Below the pieces are notes generated by a model that did no database searches, was not told the origin of the DNA, and saw nothing but the letters and a program-made list of their open reading frames with translations. A DNA stretch of 64,000 nt, from the NCBI GenBank assembly GCA_024653485.1, contig JANLFY010000008.1:107047-171046 (forward strand). Reading direction: 5' to 3'. This document shows positions 3,505 to 38,204 of this stretch, in pieces. Source of the stretch: Bacillota bacterium (lineage in GTDB: Bacteria > Bacillota > SHA-98 > UBA4971). The translations under genes were made by a program, and so were the position numbers. Numbering within the stretch: position 1 is the stretch's first letter; the number at the start of each line of letters is the position of its first letter.

Positions 3505-4399
3505 AGGGAAAGCAAGGGTCGTGGCAGCTCTCTCAGGACGTTTCCTGCCGCTCGTCGCGGTGTCGATCGTTTGCGCGCTCGTCCTCGGGACGATTCCCGC
3601 ACCGCTGGGCGGGGAGGCGGCGCACGCACAGGCCACGACGGCGCAGACCCAGGCACAGACTCCGGCGACGGCCATGCCCATCCCGGCACGGGTGGGGCCC
3701 ACCGTCGACATCGGGGGAATGTTGCCTCTGCCCAGGATAGAGGTGGGAGTTGAGTCGGCGGACAGCCCGAAGGAAGTCTCGACGTCCCTCCAGATTCTCG
3801 CGCTCTTGACCGTGCTGACCCTTGCGCCCGCCATTCTCGTTATGCTCACCTCTTTCACGAGGATCATCATAGTGCTTTCGTTCGTCCGGAGCGCCATGGG
3901 CTCACAGCAAGTACCGCCGAACCAGGTTCTCATAGGGCTTGCTCTCTTCCTCACGTTCTTCGTTATGGCGCCGACGCTGGGGGCAGCCAACGAACAAGCG
4001 CTTCAGCCGTACCTGCAGGGGGAGATCTCACAGCAGGTGGCGCTCGACCGCGCGGCCGCGCCGCTACGCGAGTTCATGCTCAGGCAGACCCGGGAAAAAG
4101 ACATCGCGCTCTTCACAGCGCTCGCGAAAGCGAAGCAGCCTGCGAACCCGTCGGAGGTGCCGCTTCTCGTGCTGATTCCGGCGTTCACGATAAGTGAGCT
4201 CAAGACCGCCTTCGAGATCGGGTTTCTCATATACGTTCCGTTCCTCGTCATCGACATGGTCGTTGCGAGCGTCTTGATGTCAATGGGCATGCTGATGCTG
4301 CCGCCCGTGATGATTTCCTTGCCTTTCAAGTTGTTGCTGTTCGTGATGGTGGACGGATGGAACCTCGTTATCGGATCGTTGCTCCGCAGCTTTCACTAG
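3485..4399 (+). CDS. fliP: Flagellar type III export gate protein FliP
   Basis: FliP forms the core of the export gate with FliQ and FliR. A cleavable signal sequence ([20 protein letters not shown], then AHAQA) is followed by an Ala/Thr/Pro linker and the conserved FliP domain with its membrane helices, including [19 protein letters not shown] and [20 protein letters not shown]. The GTG at 3485 is taken as start because GGGAGAGG lies about 8 bp upstream; a TTG at 3452 is possible. Both overlap the end of fliO. The identification is certain. Confidence 0.95.
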
Positions 4400-4437
4400 A
4401 CGGGATTTTGACGCATGCGCACGGCGGGTGATCGGTT

Positions 4438-4707
4438 GTGACGGAAGAGGTCATAGCGGGGATCGGTCAACGCGCCATATTCGTGACCCTGGAGGTCGCA
4501 GCGCCTGTTCTCTTGTTTGCTCTCGTTGCGGGTCTTCTCGTCAGCATCTTCCAGGCGGTGACGCAAATCCAGGAGATGACTCTCGCATTGGTGCCGAAGA
4601 TCCTTGCGGTCATATTGGCGCTCGTGGTGTTCGGGCCTTGGATGATGCGTATGCTCGTCGAGTTCACGCGAGAGCTGTTCACGAACCTGCCGAATTACGT
4701 GTTGTAG
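4438..4707 (+). CDS. fliQ: Flagellar type III export gate protein FliQ
   Basis: This 89-residue protein with two hydrophobic helices is the usual size for FliQ. Diagnostic sequence includes LLVSIFQAVTQIQEMTLALVP. It starts with GTG 38 bp after fliP and is followed by a 100-bp spacer before the preferred fliR start. Confidence 0.95.
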   Translation: MTEEVIAGIGQRAIFVTLEVAAPVLLFALVAGLLVSIFQAVTQIQEMTLALVPKILAVILALVVFGPWMMRMLVEFTRELFTNLPNYVL

Positions 4708-4748
4708 GCATGGCCCGACGTTTGTCCGAGGTTTGTACGAGCTGCAAG

Positions 4749-4776
4749 CGTTCAAAGACGTCCGTTCAAAGACGTC
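4749..4776 (+). repeat. 14-bp exact tandem duplication in the fliQ-fliR spacer
   Basis: Two adjacent copies of CGTTCAAAGACGTC occupy 4749-4762 and 4763-4776, directly upstream of the fliR ribosome-binding site. No function is evident. It resembles the other short tandem duplications in this window. Confidence 0.8.
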
Positions 4777-4807
4777 AAAGAGTCATGAGTCGCGGAGGAG
4801 CGAGCTC

Positions 4808-5587
4808 GTGGGGGTCGTTGATTCCGCCATCACTAGTGTGCAAACGTACCTTCTGGTTCTGGCGCGGATAGGCGGGGTCTTTGGGCTAGCGCCGGTCTTC
4901 GGGAGCCACAACGTGCCGCTGCAAGTAAAAGCGGGCTTGTCCGCCGTGCTCGGCCTGGTCGTGACTCCCTTAGTACAGACGCCTCCGTCAGGCTATCCAA
5001 CGGATATCGTTGCGTACGCCATATGTGTGGGGCGAGAGGTCCTCGTGGGCGCGATCATCGGCTACGTGGCTTCGCTCTTCATGGTGGCGGTTCAACTCGC
5101 TGGCCAGCTCGTGGACATCCAGATCGGGTTCGGTCTCGTGAACGTGGTGGACCCCGTGGCGAACAGGCAAGTCACGGTCATGGGCCAGTTTCAGTACCTT
5201 CTGGCAATGCTGCTCTTTCTCGTGTTCAACGGCCACCACGCGGTCCTCGCCGGGCTCGTCGAGAGCTACGCGGTCGCGCCCGTGTCGGGCTTCTCCCTCA
5301 CCGCGAGGCTGGAAGCTGGCGTGGTCAGGATGTTCTGTGACACTCTCGTGGTGGCGTTCAAGATAGCCGCGCCGGTCACGTGTACACTGCTTTTGACCGA
5401 CGTAGTCATGGCGGTGCTCGCCAGGACGGTGCCGCAGATGAACATCTTCATCGTGGGCCTTCCGCTGAAGATAGGGGTGGGACTCCTCACCGTGGTGGTG
5501 GCTTTGCCACTATTCGTCATGGTCCTTAGGGGCGCGTTCAGTGGACTGCAGCGAGATATCCTTGCCCTGTTCGGAGGTGCAAGATAG
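4808..5587 (+). CDS. fliR: Flagellar type III export gate protein FliR
   Basis: FliR is the third gate component. The GTG at 4808 is chosen because GGAGG at 4794-4798 sits 9 bp upstream and the resulting 259-residue length is normal; the reading frame is open further upstream to 4733 but gives a non-homologous polar extension. The protein is strongly hydrophobic with about six helices and FliR motifs such as GQLVDIQIGFGLVNVVDP. It ends 3 bp before flhB. Confidence 0.94.
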   Translation: MGVVDSAITSVQTYLLVLARIGGVFGLAPVFGSHNVPLQVKAGLSAVLGLVVTPLVQTPPSGYPTDIVAYAICVGREVLVGAIIGYVASLFMVAVQLAGQLVDIQIGFGLVNVVDPVANRQVTVMGQFQYLLAMLLFLVFNGHHAVLAGLVESYAVAPVSGFSLTARLEAGVVRMFCDTLVVAFKIAAPVTCTLLLTDVVMAVLARTVPQMNIFIVGLPLKIGVGLLTVVVALPLFVMVLRGAFSGLQRDILALFGGAR

Positions 5588-5590
5588 GCG

Positions 5591-6670
5591 GTGCCACGTG
5601 ACGACCGCACAGAGGCCGCGACGCCAAGACGGCGTCAGGAGGCGCGAAGACGAGGCCAGGTGGCGAGAAGCGTCGAGGTAAACTCCGCAGCGATCCTCCT
5701 CGCGACGCTCGGAGTGCTCGGCGCGTCTGGAGGGTTCATCTATTCGGGGCTCGGGGCCTTCATGAGGCATCTTTTGGACGACGCCCTGACGCACCCGGAT
5801 CTCTCGCCCGAAGGCCTGTACGCCCTCGCTATGGACGCCCTCATCGCAGTGGGGAAGGCCGCGGGGCCTGCCATGGCTGCCGGGCTTGTGGCGGGGCTAG
5901 CGACGAACCTTGCCCAAGTCGGGTTGGTCGTGTCCCTGGAACCGATCGCCCCAAAGCTCTCGAGGATAGATCCCGCTGCCGGACTGTCCAGGCTCTTTTC
6001 GGGGAGGGCCCTCGCGGAACTGATGAAGTCGTGCGCCAAGGTGCTCATAGTAGGGTACTACGGTTACGTGACCCTTCGACAGGACTATCCGGCGCTCGTC
6101 GCTACAGGCGTCATGGAACCCGGGCAGATCCTCGCGACCGTGGGGAACCTGGGGTTGCGGCTCGGCTTTCGCGTGGGCATCGCCCTCGCGGTGCTGGCTG
6201 CGATGGACTATGCGTATCAAAGGTGGGAGTTCGAGAAGAGCATCAGGATGACCAAGCAAGAAGTGAAGGAGGAGCTCAGGCAAACGGAAGGAGATCCAAT
6301 GCTCAGGGCGAGGATCCGCGCGCGGCAGCGTCAGATCGCGATGCACAGGATGATGCAGGAGGTCCCAAAGGCGGATGTCGTGGTCACCAACCCGGTGCAC
6401 CTTGCCGTGGCGCTGAAGTACGACCCAGGCACGATGAAGGCACCGAAGGTCGTGGCCAAGGGAGCGAGGCTGCTTGCCCAGAGGATAAGGGATCTCGCGG
6501 CGGCGAACGGCGTTCCGATCGTCGAGAACAAGCCTCTGGCCCAAGCCCTGTACAAGGCGGTGGAAATAGGTCGCGAGATCCCGGCGCACTTGTACAAGGC
6601 GGTCGCGGAGATCCTCGCGTACGTATACTACCTCGACAAGAGGGCAGGGCGCACCGGCCGGTGGAGGTGA
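5591..6670 (+). CDS. flhB: Flagellar export switch protein FlhB
   Basis: FlhB sets substrate specificity of the flagellar export apparatus. The N-terminus carries the polar TEAATPRRRQEARRRGQV motif, four transmembrane helices follow, and the cytoplasmic domain contains the self-cleavage loop. That loop reads TNPVHLAVAL, so the usual NPTH is NPVH: the cleaved Asn-Pro pair is kept but Thr is replaced by Val. At 359 residues the length is normal. The GTG start has GGAGGTG 11 bp upstream. Confidence 0.95.
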   Translation: MPRDDRTEAATPRRRQEARRRGQVARSVEVNSAAILLATLGVLGASGGFIYSGLGAFMRHLLDDALTHPDLSPEGLYALAMDALIAVGKAAGPAMAAGLVAGLATNLAQVGLVVSLEPIAPKLSRIDPAAGLSRLFSGRALAELMKSCAKVLIVGYYGYVTLRQDYPALVATGVMEPGQILATVGNLGLRLGFRVGIALAVLAAMDYAYQRWEFEKSIRMTKQEVKEELRQTEGDPMLRARIRARQRQIAMHRMMQEVPKADVVVTNPVHLAVALKYDPGTMKAPKVVAKGARLLAQRIRDLAAANGVPIVENKPLAQALYKAVEIGREIPAHLYKAVAEILAYVYYLDKRAGRTGRWR

Positions 6671-25215: not shown

Positions 25216-25843
25216 TTTGCTCAGGGTCGCGCGAGTGAGCGGGTCTTCGGTCTTGGCGGGCCTTTGAAGCCGCGCCAAACAACCGACCGAGCGCTGTGAG
25301 ACATGTAAGACAGTACATGGATAGTCCAGCCAAAGAGGCGCCTGCTACCAGCAGCGGGAAGGTAGATCGCATCGGCAGGCTCACACCGCGGGTGAGCTCT
25401 TGAGATGTCGCCGACAAGAGGATGGAGACTGCTGCGATGACGACGACGCGTCCCGCGAGGCGCCGCGCGAAGCCGCGAATTGCGCGGGTCTCGACCATAC
25501 CGGTGAGGGCCGTCGCGTGGGCCACAAAGGGCGTGAAAGACAGCAGGCTCAGGTGGCTCAAGTCTAGGAAGACGAGGATGCCGAGCCCAACGACCACGGG
25601 CTCTACTACACCAGGGTACCTGTCACTCAGAACCAGGCTGACACAGTATTCAAGGGCAACGACGCCGGCACCCCAAGTGGACAGATGGAACCGTCGAGAG
25701 AGCTGTCCGGCAGCCATGAGGCCTACGGCGATGAACATCAGGGCCAGCACACCAGTGGCGGGAACCTTCAGCACAGGGTATGCGGCTAGGACACATCCGG
25801 TCGAGATAGTGAGGAAAACCATCGTTTCATAGGCACGCTCCAT
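25178..25843 (-). CDS. Multi-pass membrane protein, last gene of the MoxR/DUF58 cluster
   Basis: The ATG at 25843 overlaps the DUF58 stop (TAATG). The 221-residue product has about five or six hydrophobic segments (for example MVFLTISTGCVLAAYPVL and PVVVGLGILVFLDLSHLSLL). No family is recognised. The polar last ~30 residues (RQDRRPAHSRDPEQ...) are encoded antisense to the duplicated DUF6115 fragment, so the native C-terminus may have been replaced when that fragment arrived. It is probably co-transcribed with the MoxR-DUF58 pair. Confidence 0.75.
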   Translation of the reverse strand: MERAYETMVFLTISTGCVLAAYPVLKVPATGVLALMFIAVGLMAAGQLSRRFHLSTWGAGVVALEYCVSLVLSDRYPGVVEPVVVGLGILVFLDLSHLSLLSFTPFVAHATALTGMVETRAIRGFARRLAGRVVVIAAVSILLSATSQELTRGVSLPMRSTFPLLVAGASLAGLSMYCLTCLTALGRLFGAASKARQDRRPAHSRDPEQIAAPQRVSRKSG

Positions 25844-27144
25844 TAAGTGTAGTTGCCGCCTGGTCGGTCGCCGGTGACGTGCCGCCGGGAAGGACCGAGA
25901 GACCCTCCGAGACATGCTCCCAGAGGCTCCGTCCCATCCCACTTCGCCACGGTGATTCCGAGGTTGCGCAGTCTCTTGACCCGTGATTCCTGCAACAACG
26001 TCCACCACTTTTGGGCCAGTCCGTCGGCGACGGAGTCTCCGATCGCCTTCCTAGTGAGCTCGATCGGAGAGATGTACATGACAACTGGATCGAAACCTCG
26101 GGCCGCCAGGTCGCCCACCATTCTGTCGGACCTTTCATCAAGCAGCGGAGTTATGACGAAAACGAGTGCCCGCGGAGGCAGAGCCCGATCGGGTATGGCT
26201 TTTACATCTTTGAAAGCAAAGCTCTCGGACGTGCGTAGCCGCGCCAGCTTGTCAAGGATCACGTGAAGCTGCCTGGCGCCGGAGCGGGGCACGACCCACT
26301 CAAGCACACAACCGTAGTTGATCATGCCCACCCTGTTCTTGCGACTCAGGAAATGGCTTGCGGTGCTGGCGGCAGCGCGGGCGCCACAGTCGAGGTAAGT
26401 CGTGCACCCTACCCCGACGTCACGCAACGTATCTATCACGACGATGACATCGATATTCCGTTCAGGGAAACTCTCGTTCACATACAGCCGCTTCCAGCGC
26501 GACGACGCCCGCCAGTTGATCCGGCGGATTGGATCGCCCGATCTGTATTCGCGTAGTCCCGCCAAGTCAAATCCCTCACCGGGCAAGCGTGAGGCATGAT
26601 CCCCCCCGTATGGCCGTGGCCTGCCAGTCATGGTCATCTTCACGTGCAAAGGCTCAACTCTCGGATACACGACGCATACCGTGCCCGGAAGAGTCGTGCC
26701 GTCAAGCCATTTAGCCCCGGTTGGACTCAAGACCCTCGAATGGACGCGACCGAGCACGAACGCTCCGCGCTCCGTAAGGGAGACTTTGGACTCGAGTTGC
26801 CGTATCTCTCCTCTTCTCATCGAGATCAGCATCCGCTCGGTCGAGACGACTCGTCCGCCTTCGGTGCACAGGAAGTGGTAGACCTCCAAGAAAGGCAAAG
26901 GTGACTCGGCGCTAATAGTGACGCGAACGTGGACTGTGTCACCCTCAAAACACCGTTCCCGGGCGCATTCGGACGCGATTGTATAAGAAGGCTCCTCGTT
27001 GTCAAGGTTTGCAAGAACTAGGCTGATGAGAAAGGGAACTCCCACGAGGGCGAATTCAAACCGGCCGCACAGCACACACGCCACAGTGAAGAAAGCTGCC
27101 ATACTGAGCCATGCACGATACTTGAGCGTCGGACGGCTTCTCAT
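25843..27144 (-). CDS. DUF58-domain protein with N-terminal membrane anchor
   Basis: Two N-terminal hydrophobic helices are followed by a DUF58 region with the hallmark LREYRSGDPIRRINWRASSR and a von Willebrand A-like C-terminal domain (VIVVIDTLRD). The MIDAS motif is incomplete, as often in DUF58. ATG 27144 has AGGAGAGG about 8 bp upstream. DUF58 proteins pair with MoxR ATPases, proposed to act in assembly or activation of protein complexes. The start overlaps the moxR stop region. Confidence 0.88.
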   Translation of the reverse strand: MRSRPTLKYRAWLSMAAFFTVACVLCGRFEFALVGVPFLISLVLANLDNEEPSYTIASECARERCFEGDTVHVRVTISAESPLPFLEVYHFLCTEGGRVVSTERMLISMRRGEIRQLESKVSLTERGAFVLGRVHSRVLSPTGAKWLDGTTLPGTVCVVYPRVEPLHVKMTMTGRPRPYGGDHASRLPGEGFDLAGLREYRSGDPIRRINWRASSRWKRLYVNESFPERNIDVIVVIDTLRDVGVGCTTYLDCGARAAASTASHFLSRKNRVGMINYGCVLEWVVPRSGARQLHVILDKLARLRTSESFAFKDVKAIPDRALPPRALVFVITPLLDERSDRMVGDLAARGFDPVVMYISPIELTRKAIGDSVADGLAQKWWTLLQESRVKRLRNLGITVAKWDGTEPLGACLGGSLGPSRRHVTGDRPGGNYT

Positions 27145-27145
27145 A

Positions 27146-28114
27146 TCAATCCTCTCCTGGCCCAGGGGTCGGAACCCTGTCCAGCACGTCATCAACTATG
27201 TCCTCGCCTCTGACGCGCTCCACCCAGAGCTCGGGTCTGATCACTATCCTGTGGGCGAGCGCCGCCATCGCCAATGACTTGACATCCTCAGGGATCACGT
27301 AATCCCTGCCTCTCATCAAGGCACGAGCCCGGGCCAGCTTGAAAAGGGCGAGCGTCCCGCGAGGAGAGGAACCGGCGTGTACGCGGTGATCATCCCTCGT
27401 TGCCTGGACGATTCTTACTATGTAGTCCTGAATGTCGGGACTCACGTAGACCGTCTCCACCGTACCCTGGAGCGAGAGAAACTCCTCCCTGGCTACGATT
27501 CTCAGGAGCTCAACCTCGTCGCGCTTTCTGCTCTGACGCCGGCTCAGGATCTCTCGCTCGGCCTTGGAAGAAGGGTAACCGATCCGCAACCTTGCCATGA
27601 ACCGATCGACTTCGGCCTCCGGCAAAGGGTACGTGCCCTCAAACTCAAGGGGGTTCTGTGTAGCCATTACGAGGAAGGGTGGTTCCAGCTTGAAGTTCCG
27701 TCCGTCTACGGTCACCTGCCGCTCCTGCATCGCTTCAAGCAGAGCGGACTGAGTCTTCGGTGTTCCCCTGTTGATCTCGTCTGCGAGGAGTAGATTGGTG
27801 AACATAGGTCCCTTTCTGAACTCGAAGTCCTCCAGACGCGAGTTGTAGACCATGCTGCCTGTGATATCTCCGGGCAACAGGTCGGGGACAAATTGGATTC
27901 GGTTGAAACTCAAGCCTAGGACACGAGCGAACATCTCTGCCGTGAGGGTCTTGGCCACGCCCGGTACATCCTCGATGAGCACGTGTCCGTTGGCGAGGAG
28001 GACGATCAGGACCGATTCGAGGACTTCATCCTTTCCCACGATTGCCTTACCGACTTCGGATAGTATCTCGTGACACTTCTGTCGAGCCTTGTCGACGACC
28101 GGAGGCTCTGTCAT
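27146..28114 (-). CDS. MoxR-family AAA+ ATPase
   Basis: An AAA_3 ATPase with the MoxR-variant Walker A EDVPGVAKTLTAE, Walker B LLADEINR, sensor ATQNP and GTYPLPEAEVDRF. ATG 28114 is used because GGAGGA lies 7 bp upstream; ATG 28120 abuts that site. It overlaps the preceding small-protein gene by an ATGA junction and drives the chaperone-like MoxR/DUF58 module. Confidence 0.93.
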   Translation of the reverse strand: MTEPPVVDKARQKCHEILSEVGKAIVGKDEVLESVLIVLLANGHVLIEDVPGVAKTLTAEMFARVLGLSFNRIQFVPDLLPGDITGSMVYNSRLEDFEFRKGPMFTNLLLADEINRGTPKTQSALLEAMQERQVTVDGRNFKLEPPFLVMATQNPLEFEGTYPLPEAEVDRFMARLRIGYPSSKAEREILSRRQSRKRDEVELLRIVAREEFLSLQGTVETVYVSPDIQDYIVRIVQATRDDHRVHAGSSPRGTLALFKLARARALMRGRDYVIPEDVKSLAMAALAHRIVIRPELWVERVRGEDIVDDVLDRVPTPGPGED

Positions 28115-28587
28115 ATGCATTCCTCCATCTTCTCGAGCACCCTCGCAATCTGCTCGGGGGTGGCTCCCTGTCCTGACTCGTGCTCCATGGCCGCTGCCAT
28201 CGCAATTACCTCCTCGGGAGCCCTCTTCAGCCTAAGGGTGTACAACAAGTAATCAAAGTTGGTCAGAGAGATGTTGAGCTTGTGGCGTAATTCATCGAAC
28301 TCTCTGCACACGGAGCCGGTTCCAGTTAGGGTCGGCCTGACAGCCGGCCGAGAGAAACGGCCTGACCTGAAAGCCGCCGGACCTGGTGATTCCACTGACG
28401 CGCCGAGGTTCCTCACGGCTGCCCTGTATACCGCCCAAAAGCAAGAGACTCCTGCGATCCGTGAGATCGCAGGCCTCAAGATCTGAGGAGCCAGTGCGTA
28501 GAGAACGAAGAACACCGGCCCCAGAACAACCGGAAGGGCGATCTCCCAGGGGAAGCCCAGCTTCTCTTCTCTCGACGTATCGTGCAC
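28111..28587 (-). CDS. Small membrane protein of the MoxR cluster, unknown function
   Basis: This 158-residue protein has one or two N-terminal hydrophobic segments (about residues 13-47, IALPVVLGPVFFVLYALAP) and a soluble helical C-terminal half (FDELRHKLNISLTNFDYLLYTLRLKR). No family is recognised. It starts with GTG 9 bp after the DUF4129 gene and is coupled to moxR through an ATGA overlap, so it belongs to the same functional unit. Confidence 0.7.
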   Translation of the reverse strand: MHDTSREEKLGFPWEIALPVVLGPVFFVLYALAPQILRPAISRIAGVSCFWAVYRAAVRNLGASVESPGPAAFRSGRFSRPAVRPTLTGTGSVCREFDELRHKLNISLTNFDYLLYTLRLKRAPEEVIAMAAAMEHESGQGATPEQIARVLEKMEECI

Positions 28588-29736: not shown

Positions 29737-31689
29737 TTACACGAACAAAGGCCCAAGAACCAGCGAAACGATTGCCATGAGCTTGATAAGGATGTTCAGC
29801 GAGGGCCCCGCGGTATCTTTGAAGGGGTCTCCCACGGTGTCTCCAACTATGGCCGCTGAGTGCGTAGGGGTGCCTTTCCCGCCCAAATTGCCCGACTCAA
29901 TGTACTTCTTGGCGTTGTCCCACGCGGCTCCACCGGTTGTCATCAGAATCGCCAAAGCCACACCGGTCACCAGAGATCCCGCAAGGAGCCCACCCAATGC
30001 CTCGGCCCCCAACCACAGCCCGATCACCACGGGCGACAACACAGCCAGGACGCCGGGGAGGATCATTTCCCTCAAGGCAGCCCGCGTGCTGATGTCCACG
30101 CACCTCGCGTAATCGGCTCTTGCCTTGTTCTCCATCAGGCCATCTATCTCGCGAAACTGGCGGCGCACCTCTTCTACCATCTGGAACGCTGCCCGACCCA
30201 CAGCCTTGAGAGACATGGAAGAGAAAGCGAAGGGAAGCATGCCTCCGAACAGGAGGCCCATCATCGTCTCGGGCCGTGTGACGTCTATGCGGTCAAGACG
30301 CACCGCATGGGTATAGGCCGCGAAGAGCGCAAGGGCAGTGAGGGCGGCGGAGCCGATAGCGAAGCCCTTGCCGATAGCGGCCGTCGTGTTCCCGAGCGCA
30401 TCCAGCGAGTCGGTGATCTTCCGCACGTTCTTACCTAGTCCGGCCATCTCGGCTATTCCGCCCGCGTTGTCCGCGATCGGGCCGTACGCGTCCACTGACA
30501 CCGTCGTCCCAACGATTGAGAGCATGCCAACAGCTGAAAGGGCAATGCCGTAAAGCCCCGCGAAACGATACGCGAGGAAGATGGCAATGACAATGATCGC
30601 TATCGGGAGAGCGGTGCTCTGCATACCGATGGAGAGCCCCGTTATCATGTTGGTAGCGGCCCCTGTCTGGCATGACCGGGCGATCTCAACTACCGGAGGA
30701 CCAGACGTGTAGTATTCGGTTATCGCTCCGATGACGATTCCCGCGAAAAGCCCTGTTACGGTTGCGTAGAATGGGCCGACCTCTCCTAAGAGCGTCGTGA
30801 TCGCAAAGTAGAAGAACACAGCGGCCAAAGCTCCGCTCACATAGGTCCCATTCCGCAATGCACCCTGGGGGTTGGCGCCTCCTCGCCACTTCACGAACCC
30901 CACCCCGATGAGGGAAGCGACAAGTCCGGCACTGACCAGGAGCAGCGGGAGAAGCGCTCCCGTCGCTCCGTACAGGCTCAGTCCTATCGCCATGCTTGCG
31001 ATCACTGATCCCACGTACGATTCGAAGAGATCGGCTCCCATCCCTGCGGTGTCACCGACACAATCGCCCACGTTGTCGGCAATCACCGCCGGGTTCCTGG
31101 GATCGTCCTCGGGAATGCCGGCCTCGACCTTTCCTACAAGGTCTGCGCCGACATCCGCCGCCTTGGTGTAGATCCCTCCTCCGACCCTAGCGAACAAGGC
31201 TATCGAACTAGCTCCGAGAGCGAAACCGTTCACTATGTCGGGGTTACGGAAGGCGAGGTGGAGAGCACCCAGCCCAGCGAGTCCGAGGGCCGCGACGGAG
31301 ATTCCCATCACCGCCCCACCTGAGAAAGCGATGTTCAAGGCCTTGCTCTGAGACTCTTCGGCAGCCTTGGAGGTCCTCACGTTGGCCATCGTGGCCACAT
31401 TCATTCCCACGTACCCTGCCAGGGCGGAGAGGGTCGCACCGATGGCGAAGGAGAGAGCAGTCCGAGAGCTCACTTTCCACGCCAAGACCGCTCCAAGGGC
31501 GACCACAAACCAGACCAGGGTTCTGTATTCCCTGTACAGGAAAGCCATGGCTCCCTCGTGGATGGCCTGCGCGATTTCACGCATCGCTGGCGTTCCTGAA
31601 GGCGCCCTCGATATGGACTTGGCCACACCAAACGCGACCAGCAACCCCAAGAACCCAATGATGACGGGGACGAGTTCAACGAGATTCAC
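29737..31689 (-). CDS. hppA: Membrane-bound ion-pumping pyrophosphatase, K+-dependent, probably Na+-pumping
   Basis: A 650-residue, about sixteen-helix enzyme that couples PPi hydrolysis to ion export. The catalytic acidic motifs are intact ([52 protein letters not shown]). [10 protein letters not shown] carries Ala where K+-independent enzymes have Lys, so it should need K+. The semi-conserved Glu is in DLFESY, the Na+-PPase position, rather than shifted four residues on as in plant-type H+-PPases; Na+ pumping is therefore inferred. The GTG start has GGGAGGG upstream. A fluoride riboswitch lies two genes upstream, co-directional. Confidence 0.93.
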
Positions 31690-31908: not shown

Positions 31909-32310
31909 CTAGTCGGCCTTCCGGCCCCAATTGGCGAATATGCTCGGAGTGCGCCTTTCTTGATTCTCGGGGCCAGCCTCTCCTCGAAGGGTCGCGAGTT
32001 CTGTGCGGAGCCTCTTGACTTCATCCTTGAGCCACTTGTTCTCGTTCACCAACGCGCCGGTAGCAAGCTCCATGCGCTTCGAACTCTGTTCAGCCTCAAA
32101 GACACGGTACTTCATCGAACTATACGAGGCATTCGCCTCCATGAGTTCGCAAGTGAGTCTCTCGATCTCCGCCCGGAGACGCCCATTGTCTTCCTTGAGG
32201 ACGCTGATCTCGGCAAGGAGGGTCTCGATGTCCGGGTGGTCCTCACCCTGACTTTGACAGGCAGACCGTCTCCGACTTTCTCGGGACTTGCCTGAGAAGA
32301 TCCAAGCCAC
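31909..32310 (-). CDS. Small coiled-coil protein, unknown function
   Basis: This 133-residue protein is mostly a coiled coil (about residues 28-112: heptads such as IETLLAEISVLKEDNGRLRA and ENKWLKDEVKRLRTELATL). No signal peptide or membrane helix is seen. It starts with GTG 78 bp after the DUF6062 gene, and hppA follows after 219 bp. It is likely transcribed from the fluoride-riboswitch promoter. No function can be assigned. Confidence 0.6.
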   Translation of the reverse strand: MAWIFSGKSRESRRRSACQSQGEDHPDIETLLAEISVLKEDNGRLRAEIERLTCELMEANASYSSMKYRVFEAEQSSKRMELATGALVNENKWLKDEVKRLRTELATLRGEAGPENQERRTPSIFANWGRKAD

Positions 32311-32388: not shown

Positions 32389-33093
32389 TCACCCATGAGG
32401 CGGCGCGGTAGGCAGCGCGGTTTGCGGGAGGCCGCTCCAGACTTGTGTAGCCCTTATCCACGCGTCCTTCTCATCGCCCCACGGCTCCTTTGAGAAACGG
32501 TAGTCGTGCTTTCGAATGACCTCTCCGAGATGCGTCTTCAACTCTTCCAGCTTTCCGATGGATACCCTGAGTAACCGCCTCGCGGTCTCGGCGTTCCGCG
32601 AAACCTCAAGAGCTCGCGCAAGGTGAGAAAGGCATAGGCCGGAGGACGCTGCGAACTCCATCTCAAACAAGGGATCGGACGTAAGTTCCTCAAGGAGAAC
32701 AGCAACATACCTTTCCTGGGATTCGCGTGCCACACAGCATGCCGGGCACTCTTGCCCGGGCACCAGTCGCCTTACTTGGGAGATCGTCAGCTTGCCTGAA
32801 GGGTGGAGGTGGGACGCAAGCAGGCTCCTGAGAGAGTCAAGAACGCCGTCAATCAGATCAACATAGATGATGGAATGGCCCAGAGGATCCCCGTGTTCGC
32901 GTAGCTGCCGGGCATGTGTGGGACAGAAACCGTTGGACTCCCTCAAGTCTCTTCTTACATCAACATCGTTGACGTTCTCATAGAGGAACATATCGAGGTA
33001 ACGGTCGACCATCTCATTGGTGAGCCGGCACACGAAACAACCCGGTTTCTTCATTGCGTCTCTGAGATTGTGGTAAGTCGCGTGCTTTGTCAC
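32389..33093 (-). CDS. DUF6062 family Cys-rich protein, first gene behind a fluoride riboswitch
   Basis: The 234-residue protein carries paired Cys/His motifs typical of DUF6062: CFVC and CPTH in the first half, CPAC and CLSH in the second, with YENVNDVDVRRDLRESNGFC and the C-terminal KHDYRFSKEPWGDEKDAW. The spacing suggests two internal repeats that each bind a metal. GTG 33093 is chosen because GGGAGGGG lies 7-8 bp upstream. It is the first gene after the minus-strand fluoride riboswitch, so it should be induced by fluoride. The biochemical role is unknown. Confidence 0.82.
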   Translation of the reverse strand: MTKHATYHNLRDAMKKPGCFVCRLTNEMVDRYLDMFLYENVNDVDVRRDLRESNGFCPTHARQLREHGDPLGHSIIYVDLIDGVLDSLRSLLASHLHPSGKLTISQVRRLVPGQECPACCVARESQERYVAVLLEELTSDPLFEMEFAASSGLCLSHLARALEVSRNAETARRLLRVSIGKLEELKTHLGEVIRKHDYRFSKEPWGDEKDAWIRATQVWSGLPQTALPTAPPHG

Positions 33094-33108: not shown

Positions 33109-33149
33109 AAAAGCAAAAACCTCTACGCATCTCACACGAGCCGTAGAGG
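33109..33149 (-). terminator. Riboswitch-controlled intrinsic terminator (minus-strand unit)
   Basis: On the minus strand CCTCTACG (33149-33142) pairs with CGTAGAGG (33127-33120) across a 14-nt loop, followed by TTTTTGCTTTT. The 5' arm includes the aptamer strand that forms the fluoride pseudoknot, so ligand binding and terminator formation exclude each other. This predicts transcription ON with fluoride. Confidence 0.9.
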
Positions 33150-33198
33150 CTATCAGCCATAAGGCGGTTGCGGTCGAATCTTGGCGAGCCTCATCGCC
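33141..33198 (-). ncRNA. Fluoride riboswitch (crcB motif) upstream of DUF6062
   Basis: Read on the minus strand, the aptamer begins GGCGATGAGGCTCGCC and ends GGCTGATAGCCTCTACGG, matching the crcB-motif consensus (P1 with the GATG loop, then CTGATxxCxyCTAC). P1 is GGCG/CGCC. The pseudoknot pairs GAGGCT with AGCCTC, fully Watson-Crick. The P2 region is about 25 nt. A promoter lies 21 bp upstream and an overlapping terminator immediately downstream. By established knowledge this RNA senses fluoride and switches on resistance genes. Confidence 0.93.
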
Positions 33199-33218
33199 AC
33201 ATCTCGGTTGTCAGTTTG

Positions 33219-33247
33219 ATGTTACCAGAGCGCAAACGCGGCGTCAA
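33219..33247 (-). promoter_or_regulatory. Sigma-A promoter for the minus-strand fluoride riboswitch
   Basis: On the minus strand TTGACG (33247-33242) and TAACAT (33224-33219) are separated by exactly 17 bp. Transcription would start near 33212, about 14 nt before the aptamer's P1. Confidence 0.8.
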
Positions 33248-33299
33248 GGGCTATTAGAATGTACTTCCAGAGCCTTACGGAGACTTGCCTGTGGAGGGG

Positions 33300-33327
33300 C
33301 CGAGACAAGAGGACCGAGACAAGAGGA
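33300..33327 (+). repeat. 14-bp exact tandem duplication abutting the plus-strand promoter
   Basis: Two copies of CCGAGACAAGAGGA (33300-33313, 33314-33327) end immediately before the -35 box at 33328. They lie between the two divergent promoters and could be a binding site or a simple slippage product. Confidence 0.75.
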
Positions 33328-33356
33328 TTGATTCTCAGAGAGTTGTTTGGTACAAT
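33328..33356 (+). promoter_or_regulatory. Sigma-A promoter for the plus-strand fluoride riboswitch
   Basis: TTGATT (33328-33333) and TACAAT (33351-33356) are separated by exactly 17 bp. The predicted start near 33363 is about 20 nt before the fluoride aptamer. Confidence 0.85.
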
Positions 33357-33383
33357 AAACCACATAGAGGAAGAGGCCCAAGC

Positions 33384-33438
33384 GGCGATGGGGCTCGCCC
33401 AAGTGCTCGACGCTGTCGAAGCTGATAGCTCCTACCGG
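33384..33438 (+). ncRNA. Fluoride riboswitch (crcB motif) upstream of the MFS-MutS-MutS operon
   Basis: The aptamer starts GGCGATGGGGCTCGCC (P1 GGCG/CGCC, 33384-33399), has a P2 hairpin (GCTCGAC with GTCGAAGC, 33405-33422) and ends CTGATAGCTCCTACCGG. The pseudoknot pairs GGGGCT (33390-33395) with AGCTCC (33427-33432) with one G-U pair. This is the architecture of known fluoride aptamers such as that of Thermotoga petrophila. It has its own promoter and overlaps its terminator. A small open frame across this region (33259-33483) is not a gene. Confidence 0.94.
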
Positions 33439-33483
33439 AAATGGATGTCAGGGAGATCGGTGGGAGCTTGTTCGTTCGTTTGA
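33427..33483 (+). terminator. Riboswitch-controlled intrinsic terminator (plus-strand unit)
   Basis: AGCTCCTACCG (33427-33437) pairs over 11 bp (one G-U) with CGGTGGGAGCT (33458-33468), and a T-rich tract TTGTTCGTTCGTTT follows. The 5' arm contains the pseudoknot strand AGCTCC of the fluoride aptamer, giving a mutually exclusive, fluoride-ON switch of the same logic as the divergent unit. Confidence 0.85.
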
Positions 33484-33528
33484 GGGGTTCGTGCACGGCC
33501 TGAGACCCCAGACGAAGACGAAGAACAG

Positions 33529-33569
33529 CCCTCCGTGATTCCTGGCGGAAACACGGAGGGTTTCGCTTT
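33529..33569 (+). terminator. Second intrinsic terminator downstream of the plus-strand riboswitch
   Basis: CCCTCCGTG (33529-33537) and CACGGAGGG (33552-33560) form a perfect 9-bp stem with a 14-nt loop followed by TTTCGCTTTG. It lies 60 nt after the first terminator and would tighten the OFF state, or may itself be countered by a longer pairing of 33470-33526. Confidence 0.75.
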
Positions 33570-33792
33570 GTAATCAGATCTTGACAGGCTGGCAGAGAAG
33601 GTCAACCTAGGACACGCCATTGTCGCCTGCCCTTGCACAGGTGCGGTGGGATGGCGGAAGCTTCGGCCGCAAAAGGTGCTGCGGCACAAAGGAGCCTAGC
33701 AGCCGGTGCCTTGGTGGCTTGGAGCGTGTTCACGCTCTGCCGCGCCGAGAATCGGACTTGATTCGTGGCCATCACGCGCGGATGAGGCAAGG

Positions 33793-33882
33793 ATGAAAAC
33801 GGGTGCTTTCGAAAAGCTAAGGGTGTTCCGAAGCACTTGTCAAGATGTGCGAGCGCGGGACATGGGGAGGACGCGAAGGTGA
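33793..33882 (+). CDS. Possible 29-codon leader peptide coupled to the MFS gene
   Basis: ATG 33793 follows GAGG by 7 bp and opens a 29-codon frame beginning MKTGAFEKLRVF. Its TGA (33880-33882) overlaps the GTG start of the MFS gene in a GTGA junction, suggesting translational coupling. The peptide is basic with one Cys and matches nothing I recognise. It may be chance; the remaining 33570-33792 holds no other supported feature. Confidence 0.35.
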   Translation: MKTGAFEKLRVFRSTCQDVRARDMGRTRR

Positions 33883-35099
33883 ACGCGGCAGATATCCAGG
33901 GGCGTAGTGGTCAGCATGGAACGAGTTTGCGCAGAACAATGAGGTTCATTCTCCTCCTTGGCATTGTCAGCCTTTTTGCTGATATGACCTATGAAGGAGC
34001 GCACGGCATCACAGGCCCGTTCTTGTCTCTCTTGGGGGCCACTGCCGCAGCGGCCGGCATTACGGCCGGGATGGGGGAACTCATCGGGTATGGAATCCGT
34101 TTGGTGTCGGGCTATCTGGCGGATCGGACCGGTCGCTACTGGAGCATTACGTTGATCGGATACACGATCAATCTTGTCGCGGTTCCTCTCTTGGCATTGG
34201 CCGGTCGCTGGCAAGTTGCGGCGTTTCTGATCGTTGCCGAGAGGTTGGGCAAGGCGATCCGCACACCGGCTCGAGACGCAATGCTCTCGCACGCCACGCG
34301 GGAGATAGGGCGAGGCTGGGGGTTCGGGCTTCACGAGGCGATGGATCAAGTCGGAGCTATCTTGGGGCCCATTATCGTTTCCGTAATCCTCCGTCTCCGA
34401 GGCGGGTACCATGTGGCGTTCGGGATACTTCTCATTCCCGCCCTGGTTGCCCTCCTGGTGTTGATTCTCGCTCGGATGCAATACCCTAGCCCCGAGAAGC
34501 TGGAGAGGGACACGGAGGCTGGGGAGACTCCCGATGCCACCAACACCCGATTCCTTCCGCGTGTCTTTTGGCTCTATCTGTCTTTCGTTGCAGTGAGTGT
34601 GGCGGGGTACGTCCACTTTCAGTTGATCTCCTACCATTTCAAGACCCTGTCAGTGGTATCAGATGTCTTGATACCCGTTCTCTTTGCGCTCGCCATGGGG
34701 GTCGACGCCCTGGTGGCCCTTCTCATAGGGCGGCTGTACGACAGCATCGGCTTGTTATCGCTCATGGCAGTGCCGCTTCTTGCATTGCCGATTTCCGCCT
34801 TGACGTTCTCCCGTGGCTACCACGCAGTCGTGGTTGGAGTGCTGCTATGGGGCGCGGTAATGGGAATTCAGGAGACCATCATGCGCGCGGCGATTGCTGA
34901 CATGATCTCGCCCGGGCGCAGAGGGGTGGCATACGGGATATTCAACACGGTTTACGGTCTCTCTTGGTTTCTAGGAAGCACAATCATGGGACTGTTGTAT
35001 GGCGTTTCCATAGCACAGGTCATCTTATTCTCTATCGCATTACAGGTGGTGTCCGTCCCACTTCTCTTTGCCGTAAGGAGGGAGCTCTCAGCGACCTGA
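33879..35099 (+). CDS. Major facilitator superfamily transporter, candidate fluoride-responsive exporter
   Basis: A 406-residue protein with about twelve transmembrane helices, the MFS motif between helices 2 and 3 (GYLADRTGRYWS) and a second conserved block, ERLGKAIRTPARDAM. GTG 33879 is preferred because GGGGAGGA lies about 8 bp upstream. It is the first full gene after the plus-strand fluoride riboswitch. The usual fluoride exporters (CrcB/Fluc, CLC-F) are absent from the window, so fluoride or fluoride-stress export is inferred from regulation only. A multidrug-type role cannot be excluded. Confidence 0.88.
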   Translation: MNAADIQGRSGQHGTSLRRTMRFILLLGIVSLFADMTYEGAHGITGPFLSLLGATAAAAGITAGMGELIGYGIRLVSGYLADRTGRYWSITLIGYTINLVAVPLLALAGRWQVAAFLIVAERLGKAIRTPARDAMLSHATREIGRGWGFGLHEAMDQVGAILGPIIVSVILRLRGGYHVAFGILLIPALVALLVLILARMQYPSPEKLERDTEAGETPDATNTRFLPRVFWLYLSFVAVSVAGYVHFQLISYHFKTLSVVSDVLIPVLFALAMGVDALVALLIGRLYDSIGLLSLMAVPLLALPISALTFSRGYHAVVVGVLLWGAVMGIQETIMRAAIADMISPGRRGVAYGIFNTVYGLSWFLGSTIMGLLYGVSIAQVILFSIALQVVSVPLLFAVRRELSAT

Positions 35100-35151: not shown

Positions 35152-36696
35152 ATGACTTTCCGTAGCATACTGTTTCCAGAGGGCAAGAGCGATAGGAGCA
35201 GCAGAATAGCGGAAACTCCGGAAGCCCCCTCCTATTTTGTCGACCTGAACCTGGATCAAATTGTGGACGCCATCACTGCCCAGAAGCATGAGTACAACCT
35301 GGAGCCTTTCTTTCATGTCGCACTGGACGATCTCGAGACGATCAAGTATCGCCAGGAAGTAATGCTTGAGCTTGAAAGCCCGAGCGTGCTCGATCACGTA
35401 CGAGCCTTTGGAAGACAGATGAGAATAATGCGCGAGCACCTGTCTCGAGCCGGCGAGTCTTTTTACAAGTACGAGAAGCAGCGGTGGTTCCTGGAGGCTA
35501 TAGGAGTCTACTGCAACGCCGTCAGCGAGCTGCTCCGAGCCTTGTCCCGTGAAGACCTGACGTCGACTGGATTTGTGGCTTTTCGTAGGTACTTGAGTGA
35601 CTATGTCACCTCAGATGGGTTCGCCTCGTTGATGGCGGAGACGGACCGGCTGAAAGCCGATCTGGCGTCAATTAGGTATTGCGTGTTAATCAAGGGTGAT
35701 CAAGTGACGGTCCGCAAGTACGAATCACAGATCGACTACAGCGCAGATGTCGAGGCGACCTTTGCCAAGTTCCGGCAGGGACAATCCAAGGGGGCACGAG
35801 AGTCTTCGTCAAGCGGATCTCCCATGAACCATGTTGAAGCTGAGATACTGGAGCTCGTGGCTAAGTTGTACCCTGACGTCTTCTCGCGTCTAGACCATTA
35901 CTGTACGGAACACGGAGGCTATCTCGATGAAGTCATAGCGGCTTTTGACCGAGAGGTTCAGTTCTACGTTGCGTATCTGGAGTACATCGCGCCGCTAAAG
36001 CAGGCGGGCCTTCCGTTTTGTCTCCCAAACATCTCCGCCGATAGCAAAGAAGTATACAGCAGAGAGGGGTTTGACCTAGCCCTGGCCAGGAGGCTGCTCA
36101 AGGAAGGTTCCTCCGTGGTCTGCAATGATTTTCGTTTGGAAGGTCAAGAGCGCATACTGATTGTATCCGGCCCGAATCAAGGCGGCAAGACAACTTTCGC
36201 TCGGACCTTTGGGCAGCTGCATCATTTGGCAGCGCTGGGGTGCCCGGTTCCGGGCAGAGAGGCTCGGCTCTTCTTGTGTGATCGCCTGTTTACTCACTTT
36301 GAGAAAGAGGAGGACATAAAGAACCTTCGCGGAAAGCTGCAAGACGACTTAGTCAGGGTTCATTCCATCCTGACCCAGGCGACCCCGAGAAGTATCATCA
36401 TAATGAACGAGCTCTTCACCTCCACCACATCGCATGACGCCGTGTTCTTGGGCAAGAGGATCCTCGAGCGTGTAATTTCGCTGGACGCGCTATGCGTTTA
36501 CGTGACTTTCCTAGACGAGTTGGCTTCGCTGAGCGAGAAGATTGTAAGCATGGTCAGTACGGTGCCTCCCGATAACCCGGCCGTGCGAACGTACAAGATC
36601 GTCAGGAAGCCGCCGGACGGGCGAGCATACGCTGCGGCGATAGCGGAGAAGTACCGGCTGACGTACGCGTGTCTCAAGGAGCGTCTGAACTCATGA
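35152..36696 (+). CDS. MutS-related ATPase without mismatch-recognition domain, copy 1
   Basis: The 514-residue protein has a MutS core/lever region (about residues 30-310) and the C-terminal ABC-type MutS ATPase: Walker A VSGPNQGGKTTFARTFGQ and Walker B IIIMNELFTSTT. It lacks the N-terminal mismatch-binding domains and the C-terminal Smr nuclease of MutS2. The ATG has GAGGTG upstream. It overlaps the next, homologous gene in an ATGA junction, suggesting a heterodimer. MutS homologues are a known class of fluoride-riboswitch-associated gene; the target is unknown. Confidence 0.87.
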   Translation: MTFRSILFPEGKSDRSSRIAETPEAPSYFVDLNLDQIVDAITAQKHEYNLEPFFHVALDDLETIKYRQEVMLELESPSVLDHVRAFGRQMRIMREHLSRAGESFYKYEKQRWFLEAIGVYCNAVSELLRALSREDLTSTGFVAFRRYLSDYVTSDGFASLMAETDRLKADLASIRYCVLIKGDQVTVRKYESQIDYSADVEATFAKFRQGQSKGARESSSSGSPMNHVEAEILELVAKLYPDVFSRLDHYCTEHGGYLDEVIAAFDREVQFYVAYLEYIAPLKQAGLPFCLPNISADSKEVYSREGFDLALARRLLKEGSSVVCNDFRLEGQERILIVSGPNQGGKTTFARTFGQLHHLAALGCPVPGREARLFLCDRLFTHFEKEEDIKNLRGKLQDDLVRVHSILTQATPRSIIIMNELFTSTTSHDAVFLGKRILERVISLDALCVYVTFLDELASLSEKIVSMVSTVPPDNPAVRTYKIVRKPPDGRAYAAAIAEKYRLTYACLKERLNS

Positions 36697-38204
36697 AAGC
36701 GTGTCTGATGTACAAGGATTGCAATTTCCGTCTGGATCAGAGGCCACTGTGGAACGAAGAAGCGCTCGTACAGGACCTGGAGTTGGACACATTGTTCCGC
36801 GCCATGGCGCACGACGACGATCTCGTGTTCGAAGTCTCGAAGAGGGCCCTCTTGTCAGGACTCACGAATGGTCCCGAAACGATAACATATCGCCAGCAAG
36901 TCCTCAGCGATTGCCTGAGACATCCGTCAATAGTGATGGACATCTACCGGCTCGCGACCGAAGCGGCTGAACAGGAGAAAAGCGCTTTCACCTTTGGTAT
37001 CTTCGGCAAGTACCCCGCCTCGATCTTACATAGGTCCGTTGGAGTATTGAAAATGCTTTGGGGCGTGCTCAAGAACCTGAGGAAGATCGGGGATGAGAAT
37101 GCCGGCAAGTTTGAGTCGGACGGATTCAACACGCTGCTTGGGATGCTGAGGAAGGAACTCAACGATGAATTCCTCACCAAGATTGGAGAGCATCTAAGGA
37201 AGCTGGAATTCCGAGACGGCGTGTTGCTCAGCGCTGAGTTGGGTGAAGGCAATTGTGGTACGAATTACGTACTTCGAATGACTCAGGAGAAAAGGCAAGA
37301 CTGGCTGAGGCGGCTCCTCTCTAAGAAGCCGCCCGCTTACACCTTTCGGATCGCCCCTCGTGATGAAAGCGGCGCGAGAGCGCTCTCTGAACTGCGAGAC
37401 AGAGGCATTGCCCCTGTGGCGAATGTAGCCGCGCAGTCGGCAGAGCACATTCTCGGCTTTCTCGATATGTTGAGAACGGAGTTGGCCTTCTACGTGGGCT
37501 GCCTGAACTTGCATGACCATTTAACCCGAAAGGGTGAACCAACGTGTCTTCCCAGGCCCGAGGTTGCCGGCAAGCGCACCCTCTCATTCAGGGGATTATA
37601 CGATGTTTGCCTAACCTTGAATACGGAGCGAAGGGTCGTCGGCAACGACTTGAGCGCAGACGACAAGACCCTCATGGTGATCACAGGCGCGAATCAGGGT
37701 GGCAAATCAGTGTTCTTGCGAAGCATTGGGGTGGCTCAGTTGATGATGCAGGCTGGGATGTTCGTGCCGGCGGAGGCATTCTCTGCTAGCGTCTGCGATG
37801 GCCTCTTCACACACTTTAGGAGAGAGGAAGATGCTAGTATGAGAAGCGGGAAACTGGATGAGGAGCTCGGCAGAATGAGCGCCATCGTCGACCATGTGAG
37901 GCCGGACACGATAATCTTGCTCAACGAGTCGTTTGCCGCCACAAACGAGCGAGAGGGCTCGGAGATCGCGAGGCAGATCGTTGACGCCCTGGTCGAGAAG
38001 GGCGTCAGAGTGTTCTTCGTTACGCACCTGTACGAGTTTGCTCATGGCGTCTATGAAAGGCGAATGAAGAACGCGGTGTTCTTGCGGGCCGAAAGGGAAA
38101 GCGACGGTGGACGTACTTTCAAGCTGCACGAAGGGGAGCCACTGAACACCAGCTACGGAGAGGACTTGTACCGGACCGTATTCGGCACTGCCTTGGAAAG
38201 CTGA
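36693..38204 (+). CDS. MutS-related ATPase without mismatch-recognition domain, copy 2
   Basis: A diverged homologue of the preceding gene (503 residues). The MutS core includes ITYRQQVLSDCLRHPS, the ATPase has Walker A ITGANQGGKSVFLRSIG and Walker B IILLNESFAATNEREG, and HLYEFAHG follows. ATG 36693 overlaps the upstream stop and has AAGGAGCG about 10 bp away. Neither copy has domain I, so DNA mismatch recognition is not expected in the usual way. The two probably form a heterodimeric ATPase. Confidence 0.87.
   Translation: MKACLMYKDCNFRLDQRPLWNEEALVQDLELDTLFRAMAHDDDLVFEVSKRALLSGLTNGPETITYRQQVLSDCLRHPSIVMDIYRLATEAAEQEKSAFTFGIFGKYPASILHRSVGVLKMLWGVLKNLRKIGDENAGKFESDGFNTLLGMLRKELNDEFLTKIGEHLRKLEFRDGVLLSAELGEGNCGTNYVLRMTQEKRQDWLRRLLSKKPPAYTFRIAPRDESGARALSELRDRGIAPVANVAAQSAEHILGFLDMLRTELAFYVGCLNLHDHLTRKGEPTCLPRPEVAGKRTLSFRGLYDVCLTLNTERRVVGNDLSADDKTLMVITGANQGGKSVFLRSIGVAQLMMQAGMFVPAEAFSASVCDGLFTHFRREEDASMRSGKLDEELGRMSAIVDHVRPDTIILLNESFAATNEREGSEIARQIVDALVEKGVRVFFVTHLYEFAHGVYERRMKNAVFLRAERESDGGRTFKLHEGEPLNTSYGEDLYRTVFGTALES

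Follow-up and report, generated by a model that had tools for sequence, protein, structure and literature searches.

Back-to-back fluoride riboswitch aptamers between a DUF6062 gene and an MFS-MutS-MutS gene set in a Bacillota genome

Two fluoride aptamers in one intergenic region

Two fluoride riboswitch aptamers (RF01734) lie back to back on opposite strands of one intergenic region in the window, i.e. the whole 64-kb stretch of DNA that was analyzed. Very probably, each of them switches on its own transcript with fluoride, that of DUF6062 to the left and that of MFS-MutS-MutS to the right.

The left aptamer was located at 33137..33207 on the minus strand (36.6 bits, model positions 1-64) and the right aptamer at 33375..33441 on the plus strand (35.2 bits, model positions 1-64). 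Both exceeded the Rfam gathering score for RF01734 (34 bits) only marginally, and they were the only over-threshold Rfam matches in the window. Their E-values in the search of the 3.0 Mb genome were 1.9e-8 (left) and 5.5e-8 (right). The preliminary description of this DNA had proposed two crcB-motif aptamers on opposite strands and had named a covariance-model search of both strands as a check; that search passed the gathering score twice. The aptamers are oriented outward, with 167 bp between their 5' ends.

P1 of the left aptamer spans 33198-33183 and its pseudoknot strands are 33192-33187 and 33151-33146 (minus strand), while P1 of the right aptamer spans 33384-33399 and its pseudoknot strands are 33390-33395 and 33427-33432 (plus strand). 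P1, P3, the pseudoknot and the conserved positions were present in both aptamers, with one non-standard pair marked in P3 of the right one. Each aptamer is situated in the 5' leader of a gene on its own strand (DUF6062, start at 33093, minus; MFS, start at 33879, plus), and on both sides a predicted expression platform would compete with the aptamer.

The conservation of the structure was evaluated in a reference alignment of 42 aptamers picked from the fetched loci, the two of the window included. The pseudoknot pairs were held in 98.8% of the cells, and five of the six pairs varied on both sides. The whole structure was 95.4% paired, compared with 37-55% when the partners were slid by 1-3 columns. 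Among the 19 columns conserved at >=90% in the 40 other aptamers, the right aptamer kept all 19 and the left aptamer 18. The exception in the left aptamer is column 80, with C for T, and its partner column 18 has G for A; as read from the alignment, the departure is a compensated pseudoknot change from A-U to G-C.

Promoter-like sites and predicted terminators

Promoter-like sites with a 17-bp spacer were found on both sides by consensus match only, in agreement with the 17-bp-spaced promoter proposed earlier for each aptamer. The left site is TTGACG-17-TAACAT (33219..33247, minus) and the right site is TTGATT-17-TACAAT (33328..33356, plus), each with TG before the -10 element. Both sit within the 167-bp gap, upstream of their aptamers. 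Two such sites in 1.3 kb compare with 0.5 +/- 0.7 in shuffled sequences.

Intrinsic terminators built from the pseudoknot strand had also been proposed, and hairpins whose 5' arms overlap the 3' pseudoknot strand were predicted on both sides. The left terminator (33109..33150, minus; -18.0 kcal/mol) has arms 33150-33142 and 33127-33120, the 5' arm holding most of the pseudoknot strand, and a U-tract at 33119-33109. This U-tract abuts GGGAGGGG, after which comes the GTG that is the likely DUF6062 start. The right terminator (33427..33481, plus; -19.0 kcal/mol) has arms 33427-33437 and 33458-33468, the 5' arm containing the pseudoknot strand, and a U-rich tail at 33468-33481 that is interrupted. 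Mononucleotide shuffles were as stable in 7/500 cases for the left terminator and in 35/500 for the right, which is therefore not striking on energy alone. A simple terminator scan, which is limited to loops of 8 nt, detected neither hairpin; the loops here measure 14 nt or more.

In the fluoride riboswitch family, binding of Mg-fluoride locks the pseudoknot and RNA polymerase reads through. Holding the pseudoknot strand out of the terminator hairpin is the likely ON mechanism at this locus as well. When fluoride is absent, the 3' pseudoknot strand would pair forward into the terminator and transcription would stop after roughly 100-120 nt, while bound Mg-fluoride would lock the pseudoknot and permit readthrough of both arms. 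The aptamer matches, the hairpins overlapping them, the neighboring genes and the recurrence are computed results; we infer fluoride binding, the direction of the response, the extent of the operons and the roles of the proteins at this locus. A bidirectional fluoride-inducible locus, as first proposed, is still the best reading, with aptamers recurring beside both gene sets; hppA is a possible member of the left transcript, and readthrough rightward into MFS-MutS is a prediction.

Genes on either side

The DUF6062 gene (32389..33093, minus) encodes a protein of 234 aa that matched PF19538 with 95 bits (cut-off 27). The longest open reading frame starts at 33135, and the likely start is the GTG at 33093, preceded by GGGAGGGG at 33108-33101. 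On the minus strand it is followed by a coiled-coil-like ORF, hppA, a DUF4129 protein, a small ORF, a MoxR ATPase and a DUF58 protein. The coiled-coil-like ORF (133 aa; 31909..32310, minus) begins 78 nt after DUF6062; a blastp search of the fetched loci gave no relative for it at E <= 1e-10. The hppA gene (29737..31689, minus) encodes a membrane-bound pyrophosphatase (Pfam H_PPase, 887.9 bits, over cut-off).

It is possible that hppA is a member of the left transcript. The terminator scan listed no site in the two gaps that follow DUF6062 and the coiled-coil-like ORF, although the same scan missed the riboswitch terminators. Searches of the genome for soluble pyrophosphatases (PF00719 and DHHA2), which gave matches in control genomes, found none, and raising the nearby membrane pyrophosphatase under fluoride would therefore be sensible. 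In the three other loci in which hppA was found by blastp, an aptamer was absent within 3 kb. In L094, L096 and L099, where the fetched stretch showed no aptamer match, DUF6062 genes of family f22 adjoin hppA convergently; these may point to a link between DUF6062 and hppA that does not depend on the riboswitch.

The MoxR ATPase and DUF58 genes (25843-28120, minus) are located downstream of hppA. In a divergent pair of genome G345, DUF6062 forms the left arm and MoxR-DUF58-(94 aa)-DUF4129 the right arm (L103 11658-15116), a hint that the MoxR-DUF58 set is also fluoride-linked.

To the right, a leader of about 440 nt separates the aptamer from the MFS transporter gene (33879..35099, plus; likely GTG start at 33879). 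It is followed by genes for a first MutS-core ATPase (35152..36696, plus) and a second MutS-related ATPase (36669..38204, plus), which overlaps the first. The order aptamer-MFS-MutS-MutS recurs in L117.

Recurrence of the divergent layout

The aptamer was detected at E <= 0.001 in at least 156 of 398 genomes sampled from the phylum, in a scan that used stricter filters and listed 150 matches. Rescoring of the 49 genomes with at least two matches gave 146 hits at E <= 0.01, among which there were 11 divergent pairs of adjacent aptamers within 1 kb of each other, five tandem pairs and no convergent pair. The spacing was 63-175 bp in ten of the 11 divergent pairs and 627 bp in one. Within the 49 rescored genomes, divergent pairs occurred in nine, the source genome included, or 9/398 of the sample.

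Named records of the best 80 of 557 confirmed relatives of the first MutS protein, which are therefore close relatives and no random sample, held at least 17 divergent pairs less than 500 bp apart in 15 records, together with four tandem pairs and no convergent one. Of the 17, two (L132) duplicate the pairs found in the sampled genome G187, whose contig is equally long (438891), which leaves 26 distinct pairs. Both members were above the Rfam cut-off in 12 of the 26, neither member in the pairs of L179, L183 and G191, and a single member in the archaeal record L170. Since the 42 aptamers underlying model R1 include both aptamers of the window and several of the pairs, R1 scores for these are not independent, and Rfam serves as the independent test.

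The records carrying pairs are deposited as Tepidanaerobacteraceae, Lucifera butyrica, Candidatus Formimonas warabiya and Selenomonadales, and further as Anaerolineae, another Chloroflexi, Spirochaetaceae, Deltaproteobacteria, Acidobacteria and relatives, and a Woesearchaeota MAG. These names are given as deposited; MAG contigs can be misplaced, and the Woesearchaeota pair has one member under the cut-off.

Terminators and promoters were examined in 18 of the 26 pairs, leaving out those of G191, L170, L179, L183, L197, L198 and L203 (two). A terminator overlapping the pseudoknot strand was predicted for 28 of 36 aptamers, against 0.85 expected from shuffled downstream DNA. Promoter-like sites with at least 8 of 12 matching positions accompanied 22 of the 36, against 11.3 expected, and are weak evidence.

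Tandem fluoride aptamers were seen in L089, L119 and L147. In L147 (Lucifera butyrica; 5666-5931, minus), three aptamer matches follow one another at intervals of 48 and 30 bp, and a divergent pair lies about 2.8 kb away. L022, from genome G009 of another genus, has three aptamers within 4108-6392; two form a divergent pair and one immediately precedes the MutS pair. Its divergent pair is flanked by a dynamin-like gene on the left and by genes for an uncharacterized protein of 239 aa and a GGGtGRT protein on the right.

Paired switches had been called unusual, which is true per genome (9/398), but the layout recurs in 26 distinct pairs. No description of back-to-back fluoride riboswitches was found in the open literature searched. 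Each switch is an ordinary member of a known family, and the back-to-back layout is a recurring variant.

The MutS pair and the neighborhoods of fluoride aptamers

From the gene name, one would expect the MutS pair to be induced to repair DNA damaged by fluoride, and Weinberg et al. (2010), in their account of the crcB motif, list mutS among the associated genes as DNA repair (PMC2864571). The best NCBIfam scores also point to this family, with MutS for the first protein (82.1 bits) and MutS2 for the second (82.5 bits), both far below the cut-off. We consider this role somewhat unlikely. In both proteins, Pfam gave MutS_V alone at E <= 0.001 (70.3 and 79.0 bits, cut-off 30.2), with no match to mismatch-recognition domain I at that threshold. 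The structural model of the first protein corresponded to the core of MutS, with alignment to most E. coli MutS chains starting only at about residue 260, which indicates a protein without the mismatch-recognition domain; ahead of the core helices there are only about 25 residues, most of them disordered. The absence of this domain makes a DNA repair role doubtful. The second protein scored about equally with the KamC reactivase (79.1 bits), MutS2 and MutS (74.6 bits).

The NCBIfam equivalog cut-off for KamC-type reactivases (300 bits) was reached neither by the second protein (79.1) nor by the first (44.5).

Three of the best 80 of 557 first-MutS loci, in which the contig begins less than 600 nt away and no aptamer was detected, were set aside. 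Of the 77 testable loci, 51 had an upstream aptamer match at a distance of up to 600 nt (R1, E <= 0.1), 40 of these at >=26 bits and 11 under 24 bits by R1. The other 26 had no upstream aptamer, and eight of them had either no R1 match at all or one below 19 bits.

The genes that recur beside fluoride aptamers are MutS-MutS, MFS, Na+/H+ exchanger, Usp, dynamin-like GTPase, enolase, CrcB, DUF190, GGGtGRT and DUF6062. In L178 and L209, pyrophosphatase and NUDIX genes adjoin a pair on its left side. These labels were spread from Pfam-tested representatives via BLAST clusters, and single labels can be wrong. Near fluoride aptamers of three genomes (L121 of G196, L022 and L103), the GGGtGRT protein is encoded beside a protein of 143-239 aa; the one of these tested (L022) had no Pfam match.

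A second hairpin in the right leader

Outside the right aptamer and beyond the right switch in the direction of transcription, a second stable hairpin with a U-rich tail was predicted at 33529..33570 (plus; hairpin 33529-33560, -25.5 kcal/mol), within the stretch marked in the preliminary description, whose right end (33569) takes it in. It is the most stable of the three hairpins and was equaled by 0/500 shuffles. It does not use the pseudoknot strand and also folds with the aptamer left out. It could stop rightward transcripts at any fluoride level. The U-rich tail of the right terminator is, by fold prediction, largely complementary to 33508-33526 (plus; region 33468-33526), and the right leader may thus form hairpins in a row.

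It is very unlikely that only the left switch governs its gene, with this hairpin cutting the right RNA short at any fluoride level and MFS-MutS-MutS using a promoter of its own further down. The stability of the hairpin, its U-rich tail and its position about 300 nt from the MFS start would fit such an arrangement, but the promoter scan of the plus strand listed no site in 33570-33879. An aptamer also precedes this MutS gene in the majority of the testable loci counted above, and some MFS relatives follow one (of 34 blastp hits, six within 300 bp and 18 within 3 kb), L117 having the same order as the window. That the aptamers are degenerate copies from an inverted duplication with their regulation lost is hardly credible: their scores just above the cut-off would allow it, but at 55% identity they are no more alike than aptamers of different loci (mean 59%, sd 7%) and hence not recent copies, they keep the conserved columns with one pseudoknot pair changed on both sides, and both have promoter-like sites and predicted terminators.

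Association of DUF6062 with fluoride

The phylum sample contained 51 DUF6062 genes after merging three pairs of split rows (54 rows), and 19 of them had a same-strand aptamer 46-120 bp upstream. An aptamer was present within 3 kb in 24 of the 51 and absent in 27, two of which have less than 120 bp of upstream DNA. The 11 top-scoring members were all among the 27, indicating that the fluoride association belongs to part of the family. DUF6062 was found in none of 14 control genomes.

The model of the window's DUF6062 protein showed a confident all-helical fold (pLDDT 89.2), for which a convincing relative was not found in the PDB. C33, C36, C71, H74, C130, C133, C168 and H171 (numbering of the ORF from 33135) were invariant in 25 aligned members, all of them from loci with an aptamer match. 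The two CxxC...CxxH sites that these residues form are likely to bind metal. DUF6062 is likely part of the fluoride response; the name was absent from the literature searched, and the fluoride association was not found in print.

Fluoride genes elsewhere in the genome

The locus had been described as having no crcB or CLC-F gene. This holds for the locus, and profile searches that gave matches in control genomes found no CLC in the genome, but crcB is present elsewhere under a third riboswitch. This third RF01734 aptamer (47.6 bits), on another of the 41 contigs of the 3.0 Mb genome, ends 56 bp upstream of the sole CRCB match of the genome. The locus is therefore without a known exporter gene, while the genome is not, and it may form one part of a dispersed fluoride regulon, with the exporter gene crcB controlled separately by the third riboswitch.

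The distribution of the locus among its kin is patchy. Four of the five other genomes of the genus had no RF01734 match at E <= 0.001 among the 150 of 475-511 candidate places scored, and of 17 genomes of the class only two, the source genome and G009, gave a match to the second MutS gene at E <= 1e-30.

A broader proposal, which is speculative and unlikely in full, is that the back-to-back switches form a bidirectional module under selection, central to a fluoride regulon shared by bacteria and at least one archaeal record. As members not yet described, this regulon would include the helical DUF6062 protein, with its two likely metal-binding sites, and the MutS-core pair, the latter rescuing fluoride-poisoned enzymes as a reactivase and not mending DNA.

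Comparison with known systems

The locus offers fluoride biology a compact, predicted two-way switch, and the recurring regulation ties DUF6062 and a pair of MutS-core ATPases to fluoride stress. A link to MutS was already published in 2010, and the absent recognition domain reopens the question of a DNA repair role. The main consequences are a fluoride link for DUF6062 and doubt over DNA repair by the MutS pair. A 2024 review (PMC11139923) names antiporters, pyrophosphatase, enolase, formate hydrogen lyase and haloacid dehalogenases, and its text contains none of the terms MutS, "DNA repair" and DUF.

Each aptamer shares with the fluoride riboswitch RF01734 its consensus, its pseudoknot and a terminator overlapping the motif, the last of which Weinberg et al. 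(2010) describe for many members (PMC2864571). What differs here is that two copies lie on opposite strands, 167 bp apart, and precede two gene sets, neither with a known fluoride exporter gene. The FRM operon of Enterobacter cloacae, described as ppaC-uspA-eno-gpmA-crcB-orf5249 with one riboswitch upstream of ppaC (PMC5533749), likewise links genes beyond the exporter to a riboswitch, and Usp, enolase and pyrophosphatase also occur in the neighborhoods analyzed here. However, MutS and DUF6062 are not among its six named genes. As in same-strand tandem riboswitches, two aptamers for one ligand share one regulatory region, whereas the aptamers of this locus point apart and would serve two transcripts.
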